64,000 nucleotides of DNA from Sulfolobus sp. S-194 (lineage in GTDB: Archaea > Thermoproteota > Thermoprotei_A > Sulfolobales > Sulfolobaceae). The translations under genes and the position numbers were made by a program. Numbering within the stretch: the stretch's first letter is position 1; each line of letters begins with the position of its first letter. The stretch spans positions 62,001 to 126,000 of the forward strand of contig NZ_CP035730.1 of NCBI RefSeq assembly GCF_012222305.1, read 5' to 3'. The notes beneath the pieces are model-generated. The model saw nothing but the letters and a program-made list of their open reading frames with translations. It had not been told where the DNA came from and ran no database searches. This document shows, piece after piece, positions 8,999 through 23,011 of the stretch.

Positions 8999-9944
8999 TT
9001 TTTTTAATCAGAATTACAATGCCAATAACTACAATTATGGAGATAATAATGTAAAGCAAGGACGAGAACGAATAACTAGTAGCCTTTTGGGAATATAAAG
9101 AAATTTCATATGCATCATTGTTTGTAGTATCTATGAATATTCCGTAAGGTTTTCCATTTTCAAATATTATTGAAGTAGGAATATAGGCCCCTTGAAGAGT
9201 ACTTAGATATTTAACCTGGTATTCATTATCAATTTTTATAAGTTCTATCTCAGATTTATTTTGAAATATACTTGATACTATAACGTATAAGGAACCATTG
9301 TAATAATCTTCTTGTATATAATTGTCCCCTCCGCTAAATGCTTGAAGGGGAATAATCTCCTTTCCGATTACTATCTTACTATCATTAATTTCGATTAATG
9401 TACCATTAGGCGAGAAATTTATACCTTCTACCCTTCCTAAGTAAATTGATGTATTAGAGATTACATTATATTCATAAGCTTGAATACCATTACTTCCAAT
9501 GTAACCAGAAATAAGATAAGGATAATAAAAAGCGAAGGGTTCACCAAAATAGCTTTGATTAACGACAATTTTACCATTATATACGTTAAAAACTTGTAAA
9601 TATCCATTATTAATAATAGCTACAAAACCTAATGAGAATAACGGGACTCCTTCTATAAAGCCTTCGTTAACAAGTTTCTCCTCGTGAAAACTAATACCGT
9701 TATAAGATATGAACACATTCAAACTATTTCCATTATCATCAATTACGAAAAGTGAATTATTATATTCATATAGATACCCTATTCCTTGAAATGATAATAT
9801 AGGAGAAGAATTACGATACAATAAAGATGTAAAGGACTGATTAGTAACTATAAAGTAAACAGAGTTGTTATAGTTTATTCCTTGAACATAATATATGTTG
9901 TGAAAAAGGACTAAAAAAAGAAGAATATGTAACACTAATTTCAC
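8988..9944 (-). CDS. Exported membrane-anchored protein, probably beta-propeller-like
   Basis: A 318-residue protein with an N-terminal signal peptide (about 1-20), a long beta-rich extracytoplasmic part with many N-x-S/T sequons, and a C-terminal membrane helix (LLYIIISIIVVIGIVILI) ending in KKIRS. Repeating short strands with Tyr/Gly turns suggest a propeller, but no motif proves it. The GTG start overlaps the TGA of the preceding 619-residue gene, so the two are coupled. It is probably a surface component of the neighbouring respiratory module. Confidence 0.65.
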   Translation of the reverse strand: MKLVLHILLFLVLFHNIYYVQGINYNNSVYFIVTNQSFTSLLYRNSSPILSFQGIGYLYEYNNSLFVIDDNGNSLNVFISYNGISFHEEKLVNEGFIEGVPLFSLGFVAIINNGYLQVFNVYNGKIVVNQSYFGEPFAFYYPYLISGYIGSNGIQAYEYNVISNTSIYLGRVEGINFSPNGTLIEINDSKIVIGKEIIPLQAFSGGDNYIQEDYYNGSLYVIVSSIFQNKSEIELIKIDNEYQVKYLSTLQGAYIPTSIIFENGKPYGIFIDTTNNDAYEISLYSQKATSYSFSSLLYIIISIIVVIGIVILIKKIRS

Positions 9945-11800
9945 CTTGTAATTCTCAATTCTTTGGGTACAGATATTCTCTTTCTTGCTTTTATTCCAGT
10001 ATATATTAACAAAGCTAGGAGAATAGCTTCTGATGAGAATGAAAGAATTAACTGACCTTGTAAACTATTCACAAAGTTAGATACATAAGTAGAGGCTAAA
10101 GCTGATGCTAATATACTTAGTGAATATGCTGAAAAAGAAGACAGAGTACACGCTGGGCAAACAGCAACAGAGCCAATTATAGTTCCTAAAAGACCCTTTT
10201 TGCCAACTCTATTTTCGAAAGTATAAGATGCAATAGCACCGGCAAGCATTGAAGATGCTATTAGCTGTAAAATTTGTAAAGGATAGATTACAGCACCAAT
10301 AATATGAGGAATGTAAATTGTGATTACTGGTGCAAACATAGGTATACCGAATAGGCCTAATAATATTGGCGGATAAGGATAACCAGAAACTCCTACATGA
10401 ATTACTCCAGCAAGAAAAACATAGGCTACTGCAAAAGGTACACTCCATTTAAACCAATTCTTCGGTCTAGGAATATGAAAGAATGTATTAATTAACTTTG
10501 CTACTCCGTAACCTAACGTTATACTTCCAATCGTTATTAGTAAAGTTGATACTCCAGTCATAACTGATAAAAATATCAAATCGTAACCGTTATAGTCAAT
10601 ATAGTAAGGAACATGGGTCAGAAAATATGCTACTTGTACTATAATCATAAATCCACCTATTGCTATCCAAGTTATACCACTCTCTCTACTTCTTGGTAAA
10701 CTTATCTTTATCTCAACTTGTTTAGTAGCCATAGTATCTCTAAGGTATTGCAGATAGTAAATACCAGCATACCAAGCTAATGGGGTTCCAATTATCCATG
10801 TAGTAATCCAGAGTAAAAGCGATTGAGATGGAGATAAATTATAAAATGGTATAGGATAACCTAAAATTAATGATATCGGCCCAGGCATAATCAAAGACCA
10901 AGCAATTACATGAAGTATTCCTAATCTGGCCCATGGTTTCAAAGTAGAATAACCGATTGCCCCTACTACTCCACTTATGAATGGTAAGATATAAACGAGT
11001 GCATTAGTGTATATATCTGGGTAAAGAGAGAAAATAACGATATTTAATATCACTGATAACAGAAATCCGTATTTCCATTTCCTCTGTAATGCTAATCCAA
11101 AAGCTCCTCCCGATGCTTCACTTAAAATAAATTTAGCTAAGGAAAATGAAGGATTCGAAGGTAATACCACAGAGATTACCATAAATATTATTACTGGAAT
11201 AAAACCTTTTACACCATTACTAATACCTTTGAGTAATCTTTTTCCGTTTAACTCATTATATAATACAAATGTAGAGATAAGTAATAAGGACAAGGCTAAA
11301 ATAACTAAGGTTTCGAAAAGGGTTGTCATGAAAGTAATGGATACAAGAAACGGTATATTAGCTGCTACACTACCAATTAGACCAGTAAATAACTCACAGC
11401 TACATGAAAGAGCTGTAGCTATAAGTCCTAATGACGAAAGAATTTGTGATGTCGCTTTTAATTTCATTGTCATATATAATGTAAGGTAAAGAGTCACGTT
11501 AAGTGCAACGAGCAAAGATAAAAATAGTGATATTCCTATAGAAAGTGGAGTCATTGCCCAGGTAAAGTAAGGAGTTGTTATCGAAAGAAAAGGTCCCCAG
11601 AGTGGGAATGGCATTTGCGATGGTGGTACTGGAGTAGAGGTGCTAACTACAAAGTATATTCCAGGCGGGAAAGAGATCTGAGTAATAATGATAAGCCTAG
11701 TTAGGAGTTGATATGCAAAAAAATAAAGAACAAAAATCGAAGAAAAAATTATTTTATATCTTCTTAATCTAAGAACCTCAAGTATATCCATACAACCCAC
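9941..11800 (-). CDS. Large polytopic membrane protein with paired cysteines, oxidase cluster
   Basis: A 619-residue protein with about 14-16 membrane segments and no recognised family. Two cysteine motifs lie near membrane segments: ALSCSCELFTGLIGSV in the first half and SVAVCPACTLSSFSAYS near the C-terminus. The surroundings of the two motifs (Gly/Ser-rich helices with similar spacing) hint at an internal duplication. Genes of this kind accompany fox oxidase clusters in Sulfolobales. The start may be GTG 11800, directly after the stop of the 52-residue gene, or ATG 11791. The cysteines could bind metal or heme or form a disulfide relay; none of this is shown. Confidence 0.7.
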   Translation of the reverse strand: MGCMDILEVLRLRRYKIIFSSIFVLYFFAYQLLTRLIIITQISFPPGIYFVVSTSTPVPPSQMPFPLWGPFLSITTPYFTWAMTPLSIGISLFLSLLVALNVTLYLTLYMTMKLKATSQILSSLGLIATALSCSCELFTGLIGSVAANIPFLVSITFMTTLFETLVILALSLLLISTFVLYNELNGKRLLKGISNGVKGFIPVIIFMVISVVLPSNPSFSLAKFILSEASGGAFGLALQRKWKYGFLLSVILNIVIFSLYPDIYTNALVYILPFISGVVGAIGYSTLKPWARLGILHVIAWSLIMPGPISLILGYPIPFYNLSPSQSLLLWITTWIIGTPLAWYAGIYYLQYLRDTMATKQVEIKISLPRSRESGITWIAIGGFMIIVQVAYFLTHVPYYIDYNGYDLIFLSVMTGVSTLLITIGSITLGYGVAKLINTFFHIPRPKNWFKWSVPFAVAYVFLAGVIHVGVSGYPYPPILLGLFGIPMFAPVITIYIPHIIGAVIYPLQILQLIASSMLAGAIASYTFENRVGKKGLLGTIIGSVAVCPACTLSSFSAYSLSILASALASTYVSNFVNSLQGQLILSFSSEAILLALLIYTGIKARKRISVPKELRITR

Positions 11801-12897: not shown

Positions 12898-13863
12898 TCA
12901 AACTTTAATTTTTTCCTTGATTAAACTCCCTACTAAAGTTGCAATTAACGGAATTAGCATGTATGTTGTAGTTGTTACTGTATCAAAAATTAAAGCACCC
13001 CCAAATAAAGCTAAAGCTGTTAATGATACTTGCTGATTCTTTTTATATAAGCCTATAGCAGAAAATAAGGCTAAAACGGCTATAAGGAAGAAAATTGGTG
13101 GCATCCAGTTTCTTACTCCTAACATACCTAGCACGTACGGAAAAGTAAAACCTATAGCCATAGCTACCCCGGGAATTAGATTAAACCATGCTATAATGAA
13201 TACTGGAAGACCCACTACAATTCCTGGAATAATATATTTCCAACTTATCCTATTCCACATAGTATATCCTATGAATATAACACCAGAAATTAATACTAAA
13301 TAAGCTAAAGACTCGCCAGAAATAATATTAATAATATTAAAAGTTGAGGACTTACTCAGTTCTGTTAGCCAGCTCCCTATTAATACTAAATAGGCATCAA
13401 TATCTGGGACTAGCAAGAGAAGCATGATTATTTTATCATAAACCCTACTTGCCTGCATAATAACTAATATTGAAGCTACCAATATTATAACAGTATAAAC
13501 TAATGAAGAAATTATTGGTAAGTTAAAGCCAGTATAATTTACACCTAAAGCAATATGAATTAAATCAAAAAGTATTGTCAAATAAAGTATTGACCATAAA
13601 AAACCTTTAGTAAGTTTACTAAGATTACTAAAATAAGCTGAAAGGAAAAGAATTACAAATTGTAATATAAATACCATTCCAAATGAAAACGCACCTATAT
13701 AGAACATAATAAGAAATTGCAACGATGTTGATAAGTTAATACCAGCGTAACCTAATGGTAAAACTCCCATTAAAAATTCTCTATTAAATAAAAGTTCAAA
13801 GAATGAAAAAATAATATAACTTAAAAGAAAATATTTTAAATTCCTTTTGATTACATTACTCAT
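12898..13863 (-). CDS. CbsB-like polytopic membrane protein (fox-type cluster)
   Basis: A 321-residue protein with about ten membrane helices and few charged loops. It directly follows a CbsA-like cytochrome, overlapping it by ATGA (13860-13863), the arrangement of cbsA-cbsB in Sulfolobus and of the related pair in fox clusters. GGAGGCTTT lies just before its start. In the cbs system the B protein is the membrane partner of an extracytoplasmic heme protein. No histidine pair clearly marks a heme site here. The partner role is inferred from size, topology and context. Confidence 0.65.
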
Positions 13864-15560
13864 ATTGAAAGCCTCCTTATTGAGTCTATAACTGCATAAA
13901 TTCCATTAAAGATTGGTAAACTAACTAGCAGAATAAGTAGTAGCATAGATCTAATAAACTTTGGTAAACTCATGGAAATTCTATTTAGTTCACTCATCAT
14001 AGTATTTCTATTTATTATCGCTACTGCTACAATAGGAGATAGAATTGAATTAGTTATAATAAACAATGGTAAAACTGATTGTTGAGGATCAGCAGGCTGT
14101 ATATAAATCCTCCACCAGAATGATATTGACTTAAAGTCAACAGACTCACCAGCACCACCTTGGAATACTGCAAAAGCTACCCAATAAGTATGTCCAGGCT
14201 GTAATTGTACTTGATAATGAGATTCTCCTTGACCGTTAGATACCCCTACTGTACTAAATGTTCGCGCAAATTCTATAATCATCCATGGACCGGTTGGTGT
14301 ATTATAGAACTGAAATCCAGTAGCGACAACAGATGGGTCCCAGAGCAGTGACTTATTTACTAACCCGTTCCAAACTTCCCACGGGTTTATATGAGGATTA
14401 TCAATTGGTGGGAATGTTGATAGATAGTTTCCGCCAATATAATATATTGACGATCCATTAACATAAATATCAGCTATTAGACCTTGATTTGGTAGGTAAC
14501 CGAGATTTAATGGATCTTTATATGAAGGCCAGTGTATATACGGAGGCGGAGAAGTTCTACTAAAGAATGTAGGTCCAGGATAACCGGGATCTTGAGTGTT
14601 ATTACCTCTTGGGTTATCATTAAAGAACCATATTTCTGCTTGACCAGCAGATAAAGCTCCTGAAGTACCAGGCATCATGTGAGGCGTATAAGCTATTTGT
14701 GTCCAATCACTTGGAACACCACCTAATAGCCACATAATAGCAAACCTCTCTGGGTACATATAGGTACTGTTATAGAATAGTGAAACGTAACCTGCAGTAT
14801 CCTCTGGATAGAATAAATTATACGCATCTTGGAACCATGTAGTACCGTTTAGTCCTAGCTTTAAGAATTGCTCAAGTGATGTAACATTTATGCTACCATT
14901 AACAATTAAGTCTATAGAAGTTATGTTAATCGGCTGTCCATTGTTTAAAGGCACTCCTTGAGGATTAACAGCACCTACTATTTGCCCATACAGCTTTCCG
15001 CTAACATTGTATACGTATATTGTTATAGGATTAGTAAGTGCCTGATTAGGTGGGTATCCTATCTGTTCTGAAGTAGGTAATGTATAAACTGATGCTACAC
15101 CTTGGTCTGAGGCTTTATATGATACATTAACTACCCACCATCCTTTAGGTTCTGGAATTGGAAAAGGTGCCCATATTTGACCTTGAGGAGTCCTCTCTGG
15201 ACATGCTAACCATGATTCTTGTCCTACAACTGGTGCCTTCATATCAATTATTACGTATGGTACACCATCAACATATGTCCATGCCGCTCTTACATAAACG
15301 GTTTGAGTATGACCAGAAATTCCATCGGGAACTGGTACAGTTGGCACTAAGGGAACTGCAGTCCATGGAATTGACTGCCAGAATGGCTCTTGTCCAGGAG
15401 TTCCTAAATTAATTGTGGCATTAGGTACATAATACGCCGTAATAGTATCACTAGCTACTTCTGCAGAATTCAACATATAATCTACGCCATATGCTACTCC
15501 AACTATAACTAAAAAAACAATTAGACCTAGAACAATTAACGATATATATCCATTAGCCAT
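13860..15560 (-). CDS. CbsA-like extracytoplasmic cytochrome b (fox-type cluster)
   Basis: A 566-residue protein with an N-terminal anchor (about 8-30), a large outside domain rich in Trp, Pro and N-x-S/T sequons, and a C-terminal helix ([17 protein letters not shown]). The motif [17 protein letters not shown] near residue 60 is typical of the ethylbenzene-dehydrogenase-type heme domain found in CbsA (cytochrome b558/566). The start is supported by a GGGGTGA ribosome site nine bases upstream, and the preceding gene ends on the adjacent base. In fox clusters this protein is proposed to carry electrons from Fe(II) toward the oxidase. The heme ligands cannot be assigned by eye. Confidence 0.75.
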
Positions 15561-15818
15561 TTATCCTTTCACCCCTTTTCTATTTAACTCAAAATGCGAA
15601 ATTATGGAACCAATTCCGAATAGAAATATCGCTAAACCCACAAAATTCCAAAAATAATTTGGAGTCGTTGCCGGAGAACCAAGTGTCATCCCGTTAACGG
15701 TAAAAACTTCATGTTGGTAAGTAACTGTTGTTGTCCCTACTCCCATTAGTATAACACCTATTACAGCTAATATTATCCCTATGTAAAGGAAGTTTTTAGT
15801 AGGAGCTTTCCCTGCCAT
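15561..15818 (-). CDS. Small two-helix membrane protein between oxidase subunit II and CbsA-like gene
   Basis: An 85-residue protein with membrane segments FLYIGIILAVIGVILMGVG and YFWNFVGLAIFLFGIGSIISH. The ATG at 15818 overlaps the subunit II stop (TGATG) and has GGTGGT five bases upstream; the TTG at 15821 is a weaker start. It is likely a small subunit of the oxidase. No named family is recognised. Confidence 0.7.
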   Translation of the reverse strand: MAGKAPTKNFLYIGIILAVIGVILMGVGTTTVTYQHEVFTVNGMTLGSPATTPNYFWNFVGLAIFLFGIGSIISHFELNRKGVKG

Positions 15819-16420
15819 CAATAACCACCTACCCCAACACCACTTACACTATATGGGGACCAAACTCCTTGTGGTGGTACTCCACCGGTTAATTCTAAAG
15901 CATAAGTATAGTTTGCCGTAGCAACTATTGTTCCTACTAACCAAGAGTGACCTAATCCTACTGCTGCAGTACCGCAGTATTCCGCACAAGCTACATGATA
16001 TAAACCTGGCTGTGGAAATACTAACACGATATATGAATAGTAGCCTGGAACTGCTTCAGCACCAAAATTGAATAGAGTGAAATTACTTGTAGCACTCTGC
16101 ACGAAGAACTCGTGGAATACATCTATGCTATGAATAACAAAAACTACTGGTTCGTCCACTGGAACAACTGTTAGATTGGTATATATTTTGTCATGAGGAT
16201 AGAAATCCCAGTGCCATTGTTGACCAGTAACATATATTATGACATAAGGTCCTTTATATGATCCAAGAGCGTTTGCGAAAGAGGCATGAACTACTCCTAC
16301 ACCAGCATTGTTATTTGGATTATATCCTATATAGTCATATGAGTCGTATTGTACTTCTAACGAAATTACAGCTACAGTTACCAGAACTAAGAATAGGGCT
16401 ATAACTGTGGCTCGTTTCAT
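15818..16420 (-). CDS. Heme-copper oxidase subunit II with altered CuA motif (fox-type)
   Basis: A 200-residue protein with one N-terminal membrane helix (about 4-22) and a cupredoxin domain. The loop [10 protein letters not shown] supplies the first CuA histidine. The ligand loop reads [17 protein letters not shown]: both cysteines and the later histidine are present, but against the usual C-x3-C-G-x2-H-x2-M there are five extra residues before the histidine, and leucine stands at the methionine position. [10 protein letters not shown] is the usual aromatic electron-entry segment. The ATG at 16420 is preferred over an in-frame start at 16498 because it opens directly into the signal-anchor, and a TATA box sits 35-43 nt before it. 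It heads the subunit II/85-residue/CbsA/CbsB operon. Confidence 0.85.
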
Positions 16421-16463: not shown

Positions 16464-16520
16464 TTTTCTTTTACAACATTACTTAATACAATACACAATT
16501 AGAATTAGAAATCAGTTTAA

Positions 16521-16573: not shown

Positions 16574-18346
16574 TTACTTATTTATTTTTAAATCTGTATC
16601 TGCTTTGCTTTCTGTTACCTTTGTAAATCCCTCTCCTTTAGCTTGAGTACCACTAGCTTGTACTCCACTACCAGAAGAAGCCCTCTCTGTTGCTCTAACA
16701 AATTCTTCAACCCTAACCATACCATCAGCTGGTAAAGCAACTGGTAACTCTTCTTCCTTATATCCCTCTCTTCTTAATCCATATCTTTCTAAGGCTATTG
16801 ATAACACGGCCCATAATGGTATATCAGTTTCTTTAACTTTTTCTCCATATAGTAGTGTGAGTACTAAGTTAAACGTGAATACTATCAAGGAGAAACCTGC
16901 AATCCATCCTCCAATCATAATAAGTTGATAATATGGCTCGTAGAACGCAGCCCAAGCTACTTCTCTTCTTATTAATCCATAGAAACCGCCGATAGCAGAA
17001 GCTGTAACGAATAATCCCATACCAGCGTTCCATCCCCAGAAATGTAACCATGATAATTTCTCACTATACCATTTTCTACCAAATAAATATGGTCCGGCTG
17101 CATAAACAGCACCAAAAACCCCACCAACTGAGTATAAGGCTAGCATAATATGAAAGTGAGAGAAAATCCAAGCGGTATTGTGGATTGTTGGATCGACAGC
17201 TTGAACTGGGTTAGTAGGTTCAGCTTGTATACCACCAATTATGTTCCATACTGCAGCAGCATACAAGAATGCTAGACCAGCATCCCATTTTAGCTTTCTT
17301 GGATCACCTAACGTTATAAAGAATAATAACCAAAACGCGGCAAAGGGTATTGCAATTAATGCTGTTGTAGTTTGAGCGAAAATATCTCTTAATACCAATG
17401 GCCATGGATCGTCTCCTAAATGATGAACGTAAACGCTGGAACCTAAAACAAACAATACTGGAATTAACCATCTCATAAACCTGTAACTGTATATGGGTCT
17501 TCTGGCATATAATGGTAATAATGCCACTGTTGCACCGCTTAGGGTGTATGGAACGAAATAAACTAATGGATGATCAGCAAACCAGAATAATCCTTTCCAT
17601 ACTTCTGCATTAGGAACACCGAAGAAGTTTATGCCTAATCCTCCTATGGGCGAGAATAATGACCACATATCAGCAATAAATACAGATACATTAGCTAATG
17701 CCATCATTATCATATCCATTACTATGAAACCTATAGCAGTTGGAACTAATTTACCTTTAACTCTACCGACAAACGATGTTCCTATGACAGAAGCTATTTC
17801 CATCCATTCTGCTACTACCATCAAACCATAACCGATATACCAAGTAGGAGAATCTTTTAGTGGATTTAAGAATGTGAACAGATATTGATTTTGTACTCCT
17901 CCAAAATTCATCATCAATAAAGCAAAATTATTTAACCAAAAGCCGGCATTAGCAATTTTAGGCCATTTTACTAGTCTAGTCCCGTTTAGCGCTGGTATCA
18001 TGTAGAAAGCTAATGCGAAAACAAATGTAAAAGCCATTCCAAATATCATGTCCATTACGTGATTAGTCATAGCTTGGAAATAATAGGACGGGGAAACTAC
18101 CATTGGAATTCCAGTTGATGCTAATCCTGCTTGTGACCTTAAGAATAGTGCAAAAGCTCCACCTATGAAGAACCAAACTAAGCCAGCTATTGCCAGCTTC
18201 AGTGAGAGAAATCTATAATCTTCTGTGTATAGCACTTTTATAAATGCACTTCTTTTTGCCTCCTTCTCTTGTATTCTCTTATATTCCATTGCCCATTCAG
18301 CGAGCCTTTCCATGTCTTGCCTTTTTAGTTCCTCCACTGACGCCAT
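16574..18346 (-). CDS. foxA: FoxA-like heme-copper oxidase subunit I
   Basis: A 590-residue protein with at least 12 membrane helices. Visible ligands are the low-spin heme histidine in MTNHVMDM, the CuB and cross-link region [13 protein letters not shown], the two CuB histidines in YVHHLGDDP, and the heme-ligand pair in [15 protein letters not shown]. The usual glutamate of HPEVY is leucine here. The ATG at 18346 is chosen over a longer frame (to 18418) because GGAGGAG lies just upstream and a TATA box at 18381-18390 fits a short leader. The C-terminal 60 residues are polar. Similarity of the whole neighbourhood to the fox clusters of Metallosphaera and Sulfolobus metallicus supports the name. 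The enzyme reduces O2 during iron or sulfur oxidation. Confidence 0.8.
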
Positions 18347-18380
18347 AACTCCTCCTACTGAATATTCTATTGATATATGG

Positions 18381-18632: not shown

Positions 18633-18941
18633 ATGAATGATGTCAAAATATCTAAATTAGAGGAGATTATATCCAATTATTCTGACAAATTAGCGAATCT
18701 ATTTCCATCCTTTGCTAGGCAATCATTCTATGGTAAAAAGGAAATTCTTCTAGTTGTTCTTAAAGCTTTAATTGACAATCAATCAATAGAGAATGCTGTA
18801 AGAGAACTTAGAAAACAAAAGATTGATGTACCCTCAGCCAGTACAGTAAGAAGGAGATTAAAACAGATAGATGTCGAGAAGTTAAGGGAATTTGTAAGCA
18901 CCTTACCGGAATTAAAACACTGTGATAAAAACGTACACTAG
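18633..18941 (+). pseudogene. N-terminal fragment of a Sulfolobales transposase-like protein
   Basis: A 102-residue frame beginning MNDVKISKLEEII, helical, with a helix-turn-helix-like segment (VPSASTVRRRLKQIDVEKL). It resembles the DNA-binding N-terminal region found on some Sulfolobus IS transposases; no catalytic domain follows, and the frame ends in KNVH. No clear terminal repeats flank it. It is probably a decayed insertion sequence between subunit I and the exported-protein genes. A small DNA-binding regulator is an alternative. Confidence 0.45.
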
Positions 18942-20141: not shown

Positions 20142-20185
20142 TTGACCATAAATGTGTATATTTGTGTGTAAAAATGGGTGATAAT

Positions 20186-22003
20186 ATGGAAGCCGTCAGC
20201 TATAAATACAAGGAAATAAAAATTACAGATTTTAATTTGAAATTGAATCTAGGTTTTTTACTAGCATCAATAGTATCTGGAATTCTACTTTGGTTAGGCG
20301 CTATGATAAAGAATATCTTTTTAGTAGAATTTAATTTATTATTTTTCACTACTTTTATCACTGTATTACTAACAAACTTAATTATTGATAAAATCCATAG
20401 AAAACCAAATAATGAATGGATTTATGTAGAATCTCCAAGAAAGAGAATTATACAAACAAGATGTGAACATAAACAGTCTATGTTTTCTACTGTTTTAATT
20501 TCTAAATTATTTAAAAAGAGTTGGGCACATTTCCTAATAATTTTGCCATCATTTCTTATATTTTACGTAGTTATGATAGCTGGGCTAATAGGTAATCAGA
20601 AACTTAACGATGTAGGATTGAGTTTAATTAATTTTGCTCCGGACATCAGTTGGTTCTTTTGGTTCCCATTACTTTGGTTACTGACGTGGATTGCAAATGG
20701 AAGAGTGTGGTGCCAAACTTGTCCATTTAGTGGACAAGCAGAATGGGTGCAAAGAAGGCATCCTTGGAAATTTATAAAGAATAAGTTAGGTTTAAAACTG
20801 AGGTGGCCTATAAAATATTCAACAATATTATATTCTGCAATAGGCTTCTCCGTCCTAACATGGGTTGAAGAATTTTATGGTATCGGTGGACCGGGTGTTC
20901 CACTATTGACTTCAGTAGTTTTGATTTATATTGCAGTATTAGAATTGGCTATAGCTCTTCTCTTTCAAGATAGGACATTCTGCAGAACTATTTGTCCATT
21001 AAGCGCTCCTTTGGCAATAAACACTATGATATCACCGTTAGGGACTTTTACCGCAAAAGATCCTAGTGTTTGTAAAAAATGCACTACTAAGGATTGTATG
21101 AAAGGAAATGATAAAACTCATGGATGCCCATGGTTTGCTTCACCAGTAAGCGTTTCATCTTCGCCATTCTGTGGATTAGCTAGCGATTGCTATAAGGCTT
21201 GCCCTCATGGAAATATAGATTGGCCCGTAAAGAGATTTCCATGGTTAGATGGACTGTTTACTACTAGGAAAAGATATGACGTAGCAGTGTCTGTACTCAT
21301 ACTTTTAGGAGTTGTGTTCTTTCAATTCTTTAATGCATTACCATTATACTCTATAATAGATTCTTGGTTAAACACTGTTACTGGTTGGATGAATATTGCT
21401 CAATCTCTCGGACCCGGACTAAGTAAATATGGTTGGAGTACTACTGGTTATCCAAATCCCCTTGATTACGCGTTTCTGAACGCGGTTCCATTCTTAATTG
21501 TTATTCCCATTGCTAAACTCACTGGGAAGTATAGGTTAGCTTTCACATCAATATCTTACTCACTAATACCATTGTTTGCAGCAACTATTCTGACAAGGAA
21601 TTTACCTAAATTGCTCGGAGGAGCGTTACTGATTCTTAACGAAATAACAAATCCAGTTGGAGTTGGAATGCGTAATTCTCAAATATATTCAACATTTTGG
21701 GGTCATGTCCTTCAAATATTGGGAAGTAATCCTACTGAAGCAACTGCTGAATGGTGGGTAATGTTAGTGATGGAAGTTGTAAATGCATTTGGCATTTACT
21801 TATCTTTAAGGGCTTCTAAAACGCTATCAGAAGTTGACGAAATTCCTAGGAAATACTATTATATTCCAATATTAGTGTTAGGAATTTCATTCATTTTAAT
21901 AACTTATTGGATGTCTAGCCCAGCTTCACCATCTCTGCCGTTGTACAATAAGTACTTAGGAAATCTAATTTATAACCCATTACAAGCACAGCCACCATTC
22001 TGA
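20186..22003 (+). CDS. Membrane polyferredoxin with NapH-like [4Fe-4S] motifs
   Basis: A 605-residue protein with about 10-12 membrane helices. Iron-sulfur motifs are in [14 protein letters not shown] and [11 protein letters not shown], characteristic of NapH/CcoG-type membrane proteins, followed by further cysteines in [23 protein letters not shown] and YKACPHGN. The ATG at 20186 is chosen over TTG 20162 because GGTGAT lies five bases upstream. It overlaps no neighbour but is 9 nt from the ferredoxin-CBS gene. A protein of this kind is found in fox clusters and is thought to pass electrons across or along the membrane, possibly to low-potential carriers. The direction of electron flow is not shown. 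Confidence 0.8.
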
Positions 22004-22012
22004 GGTGAGATA

Positions 22013-23011
22013 GTGGAGCCTACAGTTATAATTGATGTCGATAGATGCGTTGGTTGTTTTATGTGTGAAAAAGCATGCGCACTGGCAAAATGTATAGAAG
22101 TGGATGAAGTTGATAGGATAGCTAAAGTAGTTAGACCCTGGGACTGTACGGGATGTGGGGCATGTGAAAGAGTTTGCCCATATTCATGCATAATAGTAAT
22201 ATCTGATCCTGCGGAAGTCAGTATAAGAGCAAAGATAACAGTAAGTAGAGTAACAAGATATATGAATAAACCAGTAATTATGTGTAATGGGAATGAGAGA
22301 ATATTTGAAATAGCTAAGATAATGAGTAACTTTAATATAGCTTCTTTACCGTTCTACAGAGAAGAAAAACTTAACATTATCACAGAGAGTGATGTAGTAA
22401 AACTTTATTTAAATAGAAAGGATGATATATCTGAATTTGAAAATCTTGCCATAACTGTAATAGAGAAAGAGACAATATTCGATGCTATAAAGATAATGTT
22501 AGAGAAAGATATTGGACATCTTCCAGTAATATCTGTCAAAGGAGAGATTATTGGAATGTTATCTATAAGGGACTGTTTAAGGGGTATTAGTGTAACAGAT
22601 ATAATAAATACTAAATTATTGCCATTTAAAGGGACTGAATCTATAAGAGATGTGGTGAAAGATTTTAAACACATAGTAGTTGATGAAAATACTACTCTCA
22701 TAGATGCATTGCAAATAATGAGTAGGGAAAAAGTTAAAGCGCTTATTGTACAAGGAGAAAAAATAGGTATCTTTACTATTAGAGATGCTATCAAAATGAT
22801 CGGAAATAAGAGTAGGGAAGACGAGAAGATAAAGCCTAGAGAAGTACCTAAACTTTCTATTAATGATAAAATAAATAAAGCAGTAAGCATAATGTTACAG
22901 CATAATCTTAGGCATCTGATAATATCTGATGAAAATAGTAACTATTATCTGATGCAAGTTAAGGAATTAATAAAAGATATGATTTGGGTAGAGAAACCTA
23001 TTATAGACTAA
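22013..23011 (+). CDS. Two-cluster ferredoxin fused to CBS domains
   Basis: A 332-residue protein. The N-terminal 65 residues hold two [4Fe-4S] motifs: [12 protein letters not shown] and [16 protein letters not shown]. The remaining 260 residues read as two CBS pairs (repeats such as [25 protein letters not shown]). CBS domains bind adenine nucleotides, so the protein may sense energy charge and gate electron transfer with the preceding polyferredoxin. The GTG start has GAGGTGAG just upstream. It runs tail to tail with the ABM gene at 23016. Confidence 0.85.

Follow-up and report, generated by a model that had tools for sequence, protein, structure and literature searches.

An enlarged copper-ligand loop in FoxB, subunit II of the fox cluster heme-copper oxidase of Sulfolobus sp. 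S-194

The 64,000-nucleotide stretch of the Sulfolobus sp. S-194 genome analyzed here (NZ_CP035730.1, positions 62,001 to 126,000; hereafter the window) carries foxB, the gene for subunit II of a heme-copper oxidase, within a fox iron-oxidation gene cluster, and the copper-ligand region of its product departs from that of other CuA-type subunits in loop length and at the axial ligand position. The gene lies directly downstream of foxA and upstream of the genes for a small membrane protein, a FoxC-like protein and a FoxD-like protein (Table 1). Translation yields 200 residues followed by a stop codon, with a single N-terminal helix preceding a cupredoxin domain; a longer open reading frame (ORF) starting at TTG and extending to position 16498 was dismissed as a mechanical call, the orthologues aligning from the ATG at position 16420. 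Membership in the COX2 family is indicated by both the profile of the periplasmic domain (PF00116; E 4.6e-07, 30.2 bits against a cut-off of 22) and the predicted fold. The assignment to subunit II of the fox cluster oxidase made in an initial annotation of the window is borne out by this profile match, by orthology (67–99% identity among FoxB orthologues in alignment A1) and by synteny with foxA, foxC and foxD. Relatives of the fox genes also surround FoxB in Sulfolobus sp. UBA167 (L051), Metallosphaera javensis (L052), M. yellowstonensis (L053) and five more loci (L212–L216), and such neighbors are kept in part in a Marsarchaeota metagenome-assembled genome (MAG; L054); the reading frame was therefore taken as FoxB of the fox cluster.

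Table 1. Features of foxB and the surrounding fox cluster in the window. A2 is the 89-row alignment described in the text.
Feature	Position	Strand	Basis or conservation
foxB, heme-copper oxidase subunit II, 200 aa	15818..16420	-	PF00116 match, model, PDB CuA matches
H103, first ligand His (DVFHEFF)	16112..16114	-	Invariant in 89/89 A2 rows
Second insertion, approximately A110-L116, 7 aa (8 in some orthologues), after first ligand His	16073..16093	-	Alignment
C145-A-E147-Y-C149, bridging Cys pair and Glu	15974..15988	-	C145 and C149 invariant in 89/89; E147 at least 90%
Five inserted residues T151-G155 (TAAVG), between C149-G150 and L156-G157-H158	15956..15970	-	Survey and alignment
H158, second ligand His	15947..15949	-	Invariant in 89/89 A2 rows
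L161, axial Met position	15938..15940	-	Leu 12/14 and Met 2/14 in FoxB; Met 75/75 in others
foxA, heme-copper oxidase subunit I	16574..18349	-	PF00115, E 1.6e-75; alignment to solved subunit I
Small conserved membrane protein, between foxB and foxC	15561..15821	-	Conserved position
foxC-like protein	13860..15560	-	Weak ethylbenzene-dehydrogenase-type match
foxD-like membrane protein	12898..13863	-	Relatives in other fox loci
foxG/foxF-like iron-sulfur proteins, 613 aa and 332 aa (the latter with CBS domains)	20162..23011	+	Domain matches

The ligand region of FoxB reads C145-AEY-C149-GTAAVGLG-H158-SW-L161, an exact match to the loop quoted in the initial annotation, and the full copper motif is Hx41Cx3Cx8Hx2L. 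FoxB retains the canonical set of two cysteines and two histidines at conserved alignment positions and lacks both the canonical spacing and the axial methionine. Two further claims of that annotation also stand, namely the five extra residues between the second cysteine and the histidine (C149-x8-H158 against a canonical x3) and the replacement of the methionine ligand by leucine (L161). In known CuA sites the glutamate between the cysteine pair contributes its backbone carbonyl. H158 is the only histidine after C149, so that the loop has no alternative reading, and Met1 is the sole methionine, which excludes within this protein the substitute methionine ligand that would have undone the proposed alteration; a methionine near residue 182 occurs in ten of the 13 other FoxB orthologues and is absent from the window copy. 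Nor does FoxB resemble a type 1 copper site, in which a single cysteine is joined by two histidines and a methionine, as it has two invariant cysteines and an axial leucine. A frameshift or assembly error was ruled out as the source of the loop, the same loop being present in 13 other sequences. For comparison, Hx34Cx3Cx3Hx2M is the published form of the canonical CuA motif (PMC6189053; papers given by PMC number are cited throughout from excerpts of their text).

The loop survey covered Thermoproteota and drew on matches from searches of the order and the phylum, some weaker order-search matches being left out. It comprised 170 distinct stop-to-stop ORF sequences: 14 FoxB proteins, originating from 13 Sulfolobaceae genomes and one Marsarchaeota MAG, 149 canonical subunits, and seven sequences without a complete motif, of which five are subunits we take to be SoxA-like, with the Cys and His ligands lost, and two are other cupredoxins. 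The x8 loop occurs in all 14 FoxB and Cx3Cx3Hx2M in all 149 other motif-bearing CuA-type subunits, a division that can be ascribed neither to chance nor to sequencing error, though the counts do not represent independent events because some sequences come from near-identical species. Alignment A2 was reduced from 197 motif-bearing ORF matches to 90 by removal of near-duplicates and to 89 rows by omission of a short fragment (L164), with the window copy standing in for the identical L001; x3 and Met are present in each of its 75 non-Fox rows. Close full-length FoxB was found in 13 of the 197 genomes of the order, while a profile search of the 398 genomes of the phylum returned ten matches at E < 1e-100, the next only at E 1.5e-16. 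In the class to which the Marsarchaeota bin belongs, a search of 196 genomes gave 13 matches at the E < 1e-100 level; the three genome sets overlap. FoxB forms a single clade in the tree (bootstrap 99), and the host genome has two further CuA subunits (L031 and L109), both canonical.

The axial leucine is less strict than the loop. Twelve of the 14 FoxB carry it and two (L009/L051 and L012) have a methionine together with the x8 loop, both within fox clusters; leucine is thus not indispensable to the fox oxidase, and the x8 loop is the defining change. The interpretation first proposed is partly supported: the retained main ligands, the longer loop and the Met-to-Leu change stand, the shift in redox potential is putative and might go in either direction, and the two Met-bearing orthologues speak against a strict reading. 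L009 and L012 are nested among Leu-bearing FoxB, and the copy closest to the root, that of the Marsarchaeota MAG, carries leucine. A return from leucine to methionine is likely in these two lineages, but not certain, because several deep nodes of the tree are weak (bootstrap 44–77).

The enlarged loop is accompanied by a second insertion. Counted from H103 to G126, the PG glycine used as the end point, the spacing is 22–23 residues in all 14 FoxB versus 15 in 65 of the 75 others (alignment A2). As read from alignment A1, 13 of the 14 FoxB have an N-x-S/T sequon within this insertion (SNFT, SNFS or SNNS), and glycosylation near the copper site is possible there. The presence of a second insertion elsewhere in the domain, the invariance of loop length while Leu and Met vary, and the way in which copper-delivery proteins recognize the ligand loops of other oxidases (PMC6696091) could all be accommodated if the loop insertion were mainly a docking or assembly feature, in contact with FoxA, FoxC, a blue copper donor or a copper chaperone, the redox properties of CuA remaining ordinary and the leucine reflecting neutral drift. 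This explanation is unlikely, if not negligibly so, as all 149 canonical subunits have retained methionine, which makes drift at this site unusual, and leucine is found in the Marsarchaeota copy as well as in most Sulfolobaceae copies.

The AlphaFold model predicts the cupredoxin fold of a CuA domain, the outcome of modeling that the initial annotation had recommended. The run with 89 sequences was used (mean predicted local distance difference test score, pLDDT, 80.1; approximately 81–88 over residues 141–160) and that with 14 close sequences (pLDDT 54) was set aside. A strand to residue 145 is followed by the loop, a short helical turn (157–160) and a strand from 162, and subunit II/CuA domains rank highest among the PDB matches, including Bradyrhizobium CoxB (4w9z; Z 14.2, root-mean-square deviation 2.0, 116 residues aligned) and Thermus CuA (2cua; Z 11.8, deviation 2.1, 100 residues aligned). 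Aligned to solved subunit I, FoxA keeps the HPxVY, HH, HFH and RR motifs (seen as DHPLVY, VHH, HFH and IRRE); we take the His and Tyr motifs to mark the oxygen site and the arginine pair to lie between CuA and heme, as in solved enzymes. With the ligands kept, the CuA fold predicted and the FoxA active-site motifs kept, FoxB is predicted to be a working CuA subunit.

The same ligands bear on two alternatives. FoxB could have lost, or be losing, its copper and act like the subunit II of a quinol oxidase; its model has been likened to CyoA (PMC10654088), relatives in the Sulfolobaceae did lose ligands, and one genome (G066) retains only a FoxB remnant. However, the ligand loss of CuA-less (CyoA/SoxA-like) subunits is not seen in FoxB, where all four main ligands are invariant across the 14 proteins, unlike in the five ligand-less subunits, and 1cyx, the first CyoA match in Foldseek and also named in PMC10654088, carries an engineered CuA site. 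Copper loss was accordingly ruled out as the leading idea and is extremely improbable. Alternatively, C149 and H158, whose separation equals that of the Cys and His in green nitrite reductase sites, could hold a mononuclear copper of type 1-like or other geometry, and type 1 loops grafted on a CuA scaffold do give type 1-like sites (PMC7480511); this too is very improbable, since both cysteines, both histidines and the glutamate are kept and would not be required for one copper.

The small membrane protein occupies the same place in L051–L053 and L211–L216 and was not found in the Marsarchaeota locus. Relatives of the two iron-sulfur proteins, for which foxG and foxF are presumed to be the appropriate letters, occur nearby in some fox loci. 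A 619-residue membrane protein at 9941–11800 (reverse strand), conserved in fox clusters and carrying SCSCE and CPAC motifs without a Pfam match, is a possible metal-handling partner, and a 102-residue ORF at 18633–18941 (forward strand), helix-turn-helix-like and with the look of a transposase gene, is located between foxA and the foxG side. FoxC is present in 13 of the 22 Sulfolobaceae genomes tested, 12 of which have a full-length FoxB match, and no FoxB-level match was found in the nine genomes without FoxC. The remaining FoxC genome, G066, has a partial fox set and is an exception to an ‘all or none’ distribution: its locus (L211, 9995–12931) still has foxC, foxD and the gene for the small protein, FoxB is cut to about 35 C-terminal residues, and foxA, foxG and foxF were not found within the 16 kb locus stretch. 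Judged from this gene content, the locus is a decaying fox cluster; G066 shares its genus with the Met-bearing G096. In G078, of the same genus as the host, foxC and foxG are each split over two reading frames (L213, 4934–6699 and 11298–13135), reflecting either real decay or sequence error, whereas both are intact in the window.

Taken as a whole, the favored interpretation, with a probability of roughly 0.62, is that FoxB is a functional CuA electron-entry subunit with an enlarged loop, tuned for Fe(II)-derived electrons. Two coppers would bind as in CuA, and electrons would enter at FoxB and pass via H158 to the conserved FoxA arginine pair and then to the FoxA heme. Loop enlargement and loss of the thioether would alter the surroundings and potential of the copper site, and probably the docking surface, and the altered site would accept electrons from a high-potential Fe(II)-derived donor at the acidic cell surface. 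In its favor are the conservation of the ligands (89/89), the loop division (14/14 against 149/149), the single clade, the fold and the FoxA motifs; additionally, genuine CuA loss, as in the five SoxA-like subunits, leaves the Cys and His ligands gone, and full-length FoxB accompanies foxC in 12 of 13 genomes.

Several observations weigh against this interpretation. Two FoxB retain the axial methionine, the AlphaFold model is metal-free, and there is no clear Sco copper chaperone in the genome, the single match scoring 21.3 bits, below the Pfam cut-off of 22.8. This Sco-family match lies at G000:C1:2214099-2214293 of the host genome. CuA absorbs near 485 nm when oxidized, not when reduced, for which reason the reduced 485 nm species considered next was set aside as a candidate for CuA. 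That unexplained species was described together with a 578/579 nm cytochrome, and without the signal of an a583aa3-type oxidase, in M. sedula and S. metallicus respiring iron (PMC5143472). According to that paper, no gene for the cytochrome is known in these species, nor is a prosthetic group that would account for the 485 nm species. These spectra make the proposed route of electrons less certain.

In known enzymes the histidine that the enlarged loop adjoins borders the interface with subunit I, so that docking or electron exit could change as well as potential. A Met-to-Leu mutant of the Rhodobacter CuA is said to have a raised potential. Changes of axial ligand and of loop length are established means of altering a copper site. 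A natural replacement of axial Met by Leu is cited as raising the potential in ceruloplasmin (PMC4059628). In FoxB, a potential raised to suit electrons derived from Fe(II) is plausible. The more specific proposal of a loop-expanded, mostly thioether-free CuA, with a potential well above that of ordinary CuA, that feeds Fe(II)-derived electrons into a thermoacidophile oxidase is tentative and somewhat doubtful. On the Thermus CuA scaffold, reorganization energy tracks the length of the grafted loop, changing up to 2.3-fold, and a longer loop shields the metal less effectively, whereas natural loop sequences shift the potential by only up to 50 mV (PMC7480511). The FoxB loop therefore need not act mainly on potential, though the analogy is partial because those grafts make type 1-like sites.

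The excerpted open-access literature on Fox/FoxB or altered CuA sites does not state the expansion of the FoxB loop; the principal fox cluster papers lie outside that scope, and priority for the finding is thus open. FoxB is modeled in PMC10654088, where ‘CuA’ appears, in the excerpts, only in a reference title, and fox genes are mentioned without that term in those of PMC8280799, PMC7325606 and PMC5461723. A need for FoxB in Fe(II) oxidation is putative, its basis being the expression and distribution published in PMC5461723. The decay of the CuA motif in the CyoA of Acidithiobacillia (PMC8528912) is a different change from that in FoxB. Should the interpretation hold, a loop-expanded, mostly thioether-free CuA would be a subclass not described in the open literature examined, and the Met-bearing orthologues would provide a natural comparison to separate the effect of the loop from that of the ligand. 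A native oxidase clade with five extra loop residues, mostly without the axial methionine, would parallel in nature the loop and ligand swaps made in the laboratory, and bears on how archaea that respire Fe(II), a very weak reductant with a Fe(III)/Fe(II) couple of about +770 mV at low pH (PMC4059628), deliver electrons to oxygen.

Among known systems, FoxB shares the cupredoxin fold, the two cysteines and two histidines, and the x3 spacing between the cysteines with CuA subunits II, including the CuA domain of the ba3 oxidase from Thermus thermophilus (2cua, 1ehk), and the LGH that closes the FoxB loop resembles the Thermus CGLGH. These subunits differ in having x3 from the second cysteine to the histidine, a methionine, and 34 residues (the printed canonical value) from the first histidine to the first cysteine, where FoxB has x8, leucine and 41. 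The SoxH-like and further canonical CuA subunits of the Sulfolobaceae, exemplified in the host genome by CAEFCGPGHYTM in L031 and CAEYCGIGHSYM in L109, belong to the same family and have the same ligands but differ in their canonical spacing and methionine; the L031 copy has a sulfocyanin gene and a further oxidase subunit I nearby, and two sulfocyanin genes lie near the L109 copy. Other FoxB, such as those of M. yellowstonensis and M. javensis, are the same protein in close relatives and have the same x8 loop. The CuA-like site of PmoD similarly has a non-canonical sequence for a CuA-type center, but lies between two monomers, uses another ligand set and is not an oxidase loop (PMC6189053). 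Another cupredoxin from an acidic Fe(II) respiratory chain is AcoP of Acidithiobacillus ferrooxidans, whose Cys-His loop is likewise unusual in length and whose potential is high (+566 mV); unlike FoxB, it is a separate single-domain protein with green copper, a six-residue Cys-His spacing and methionine as a named ligand (PMC4059628).
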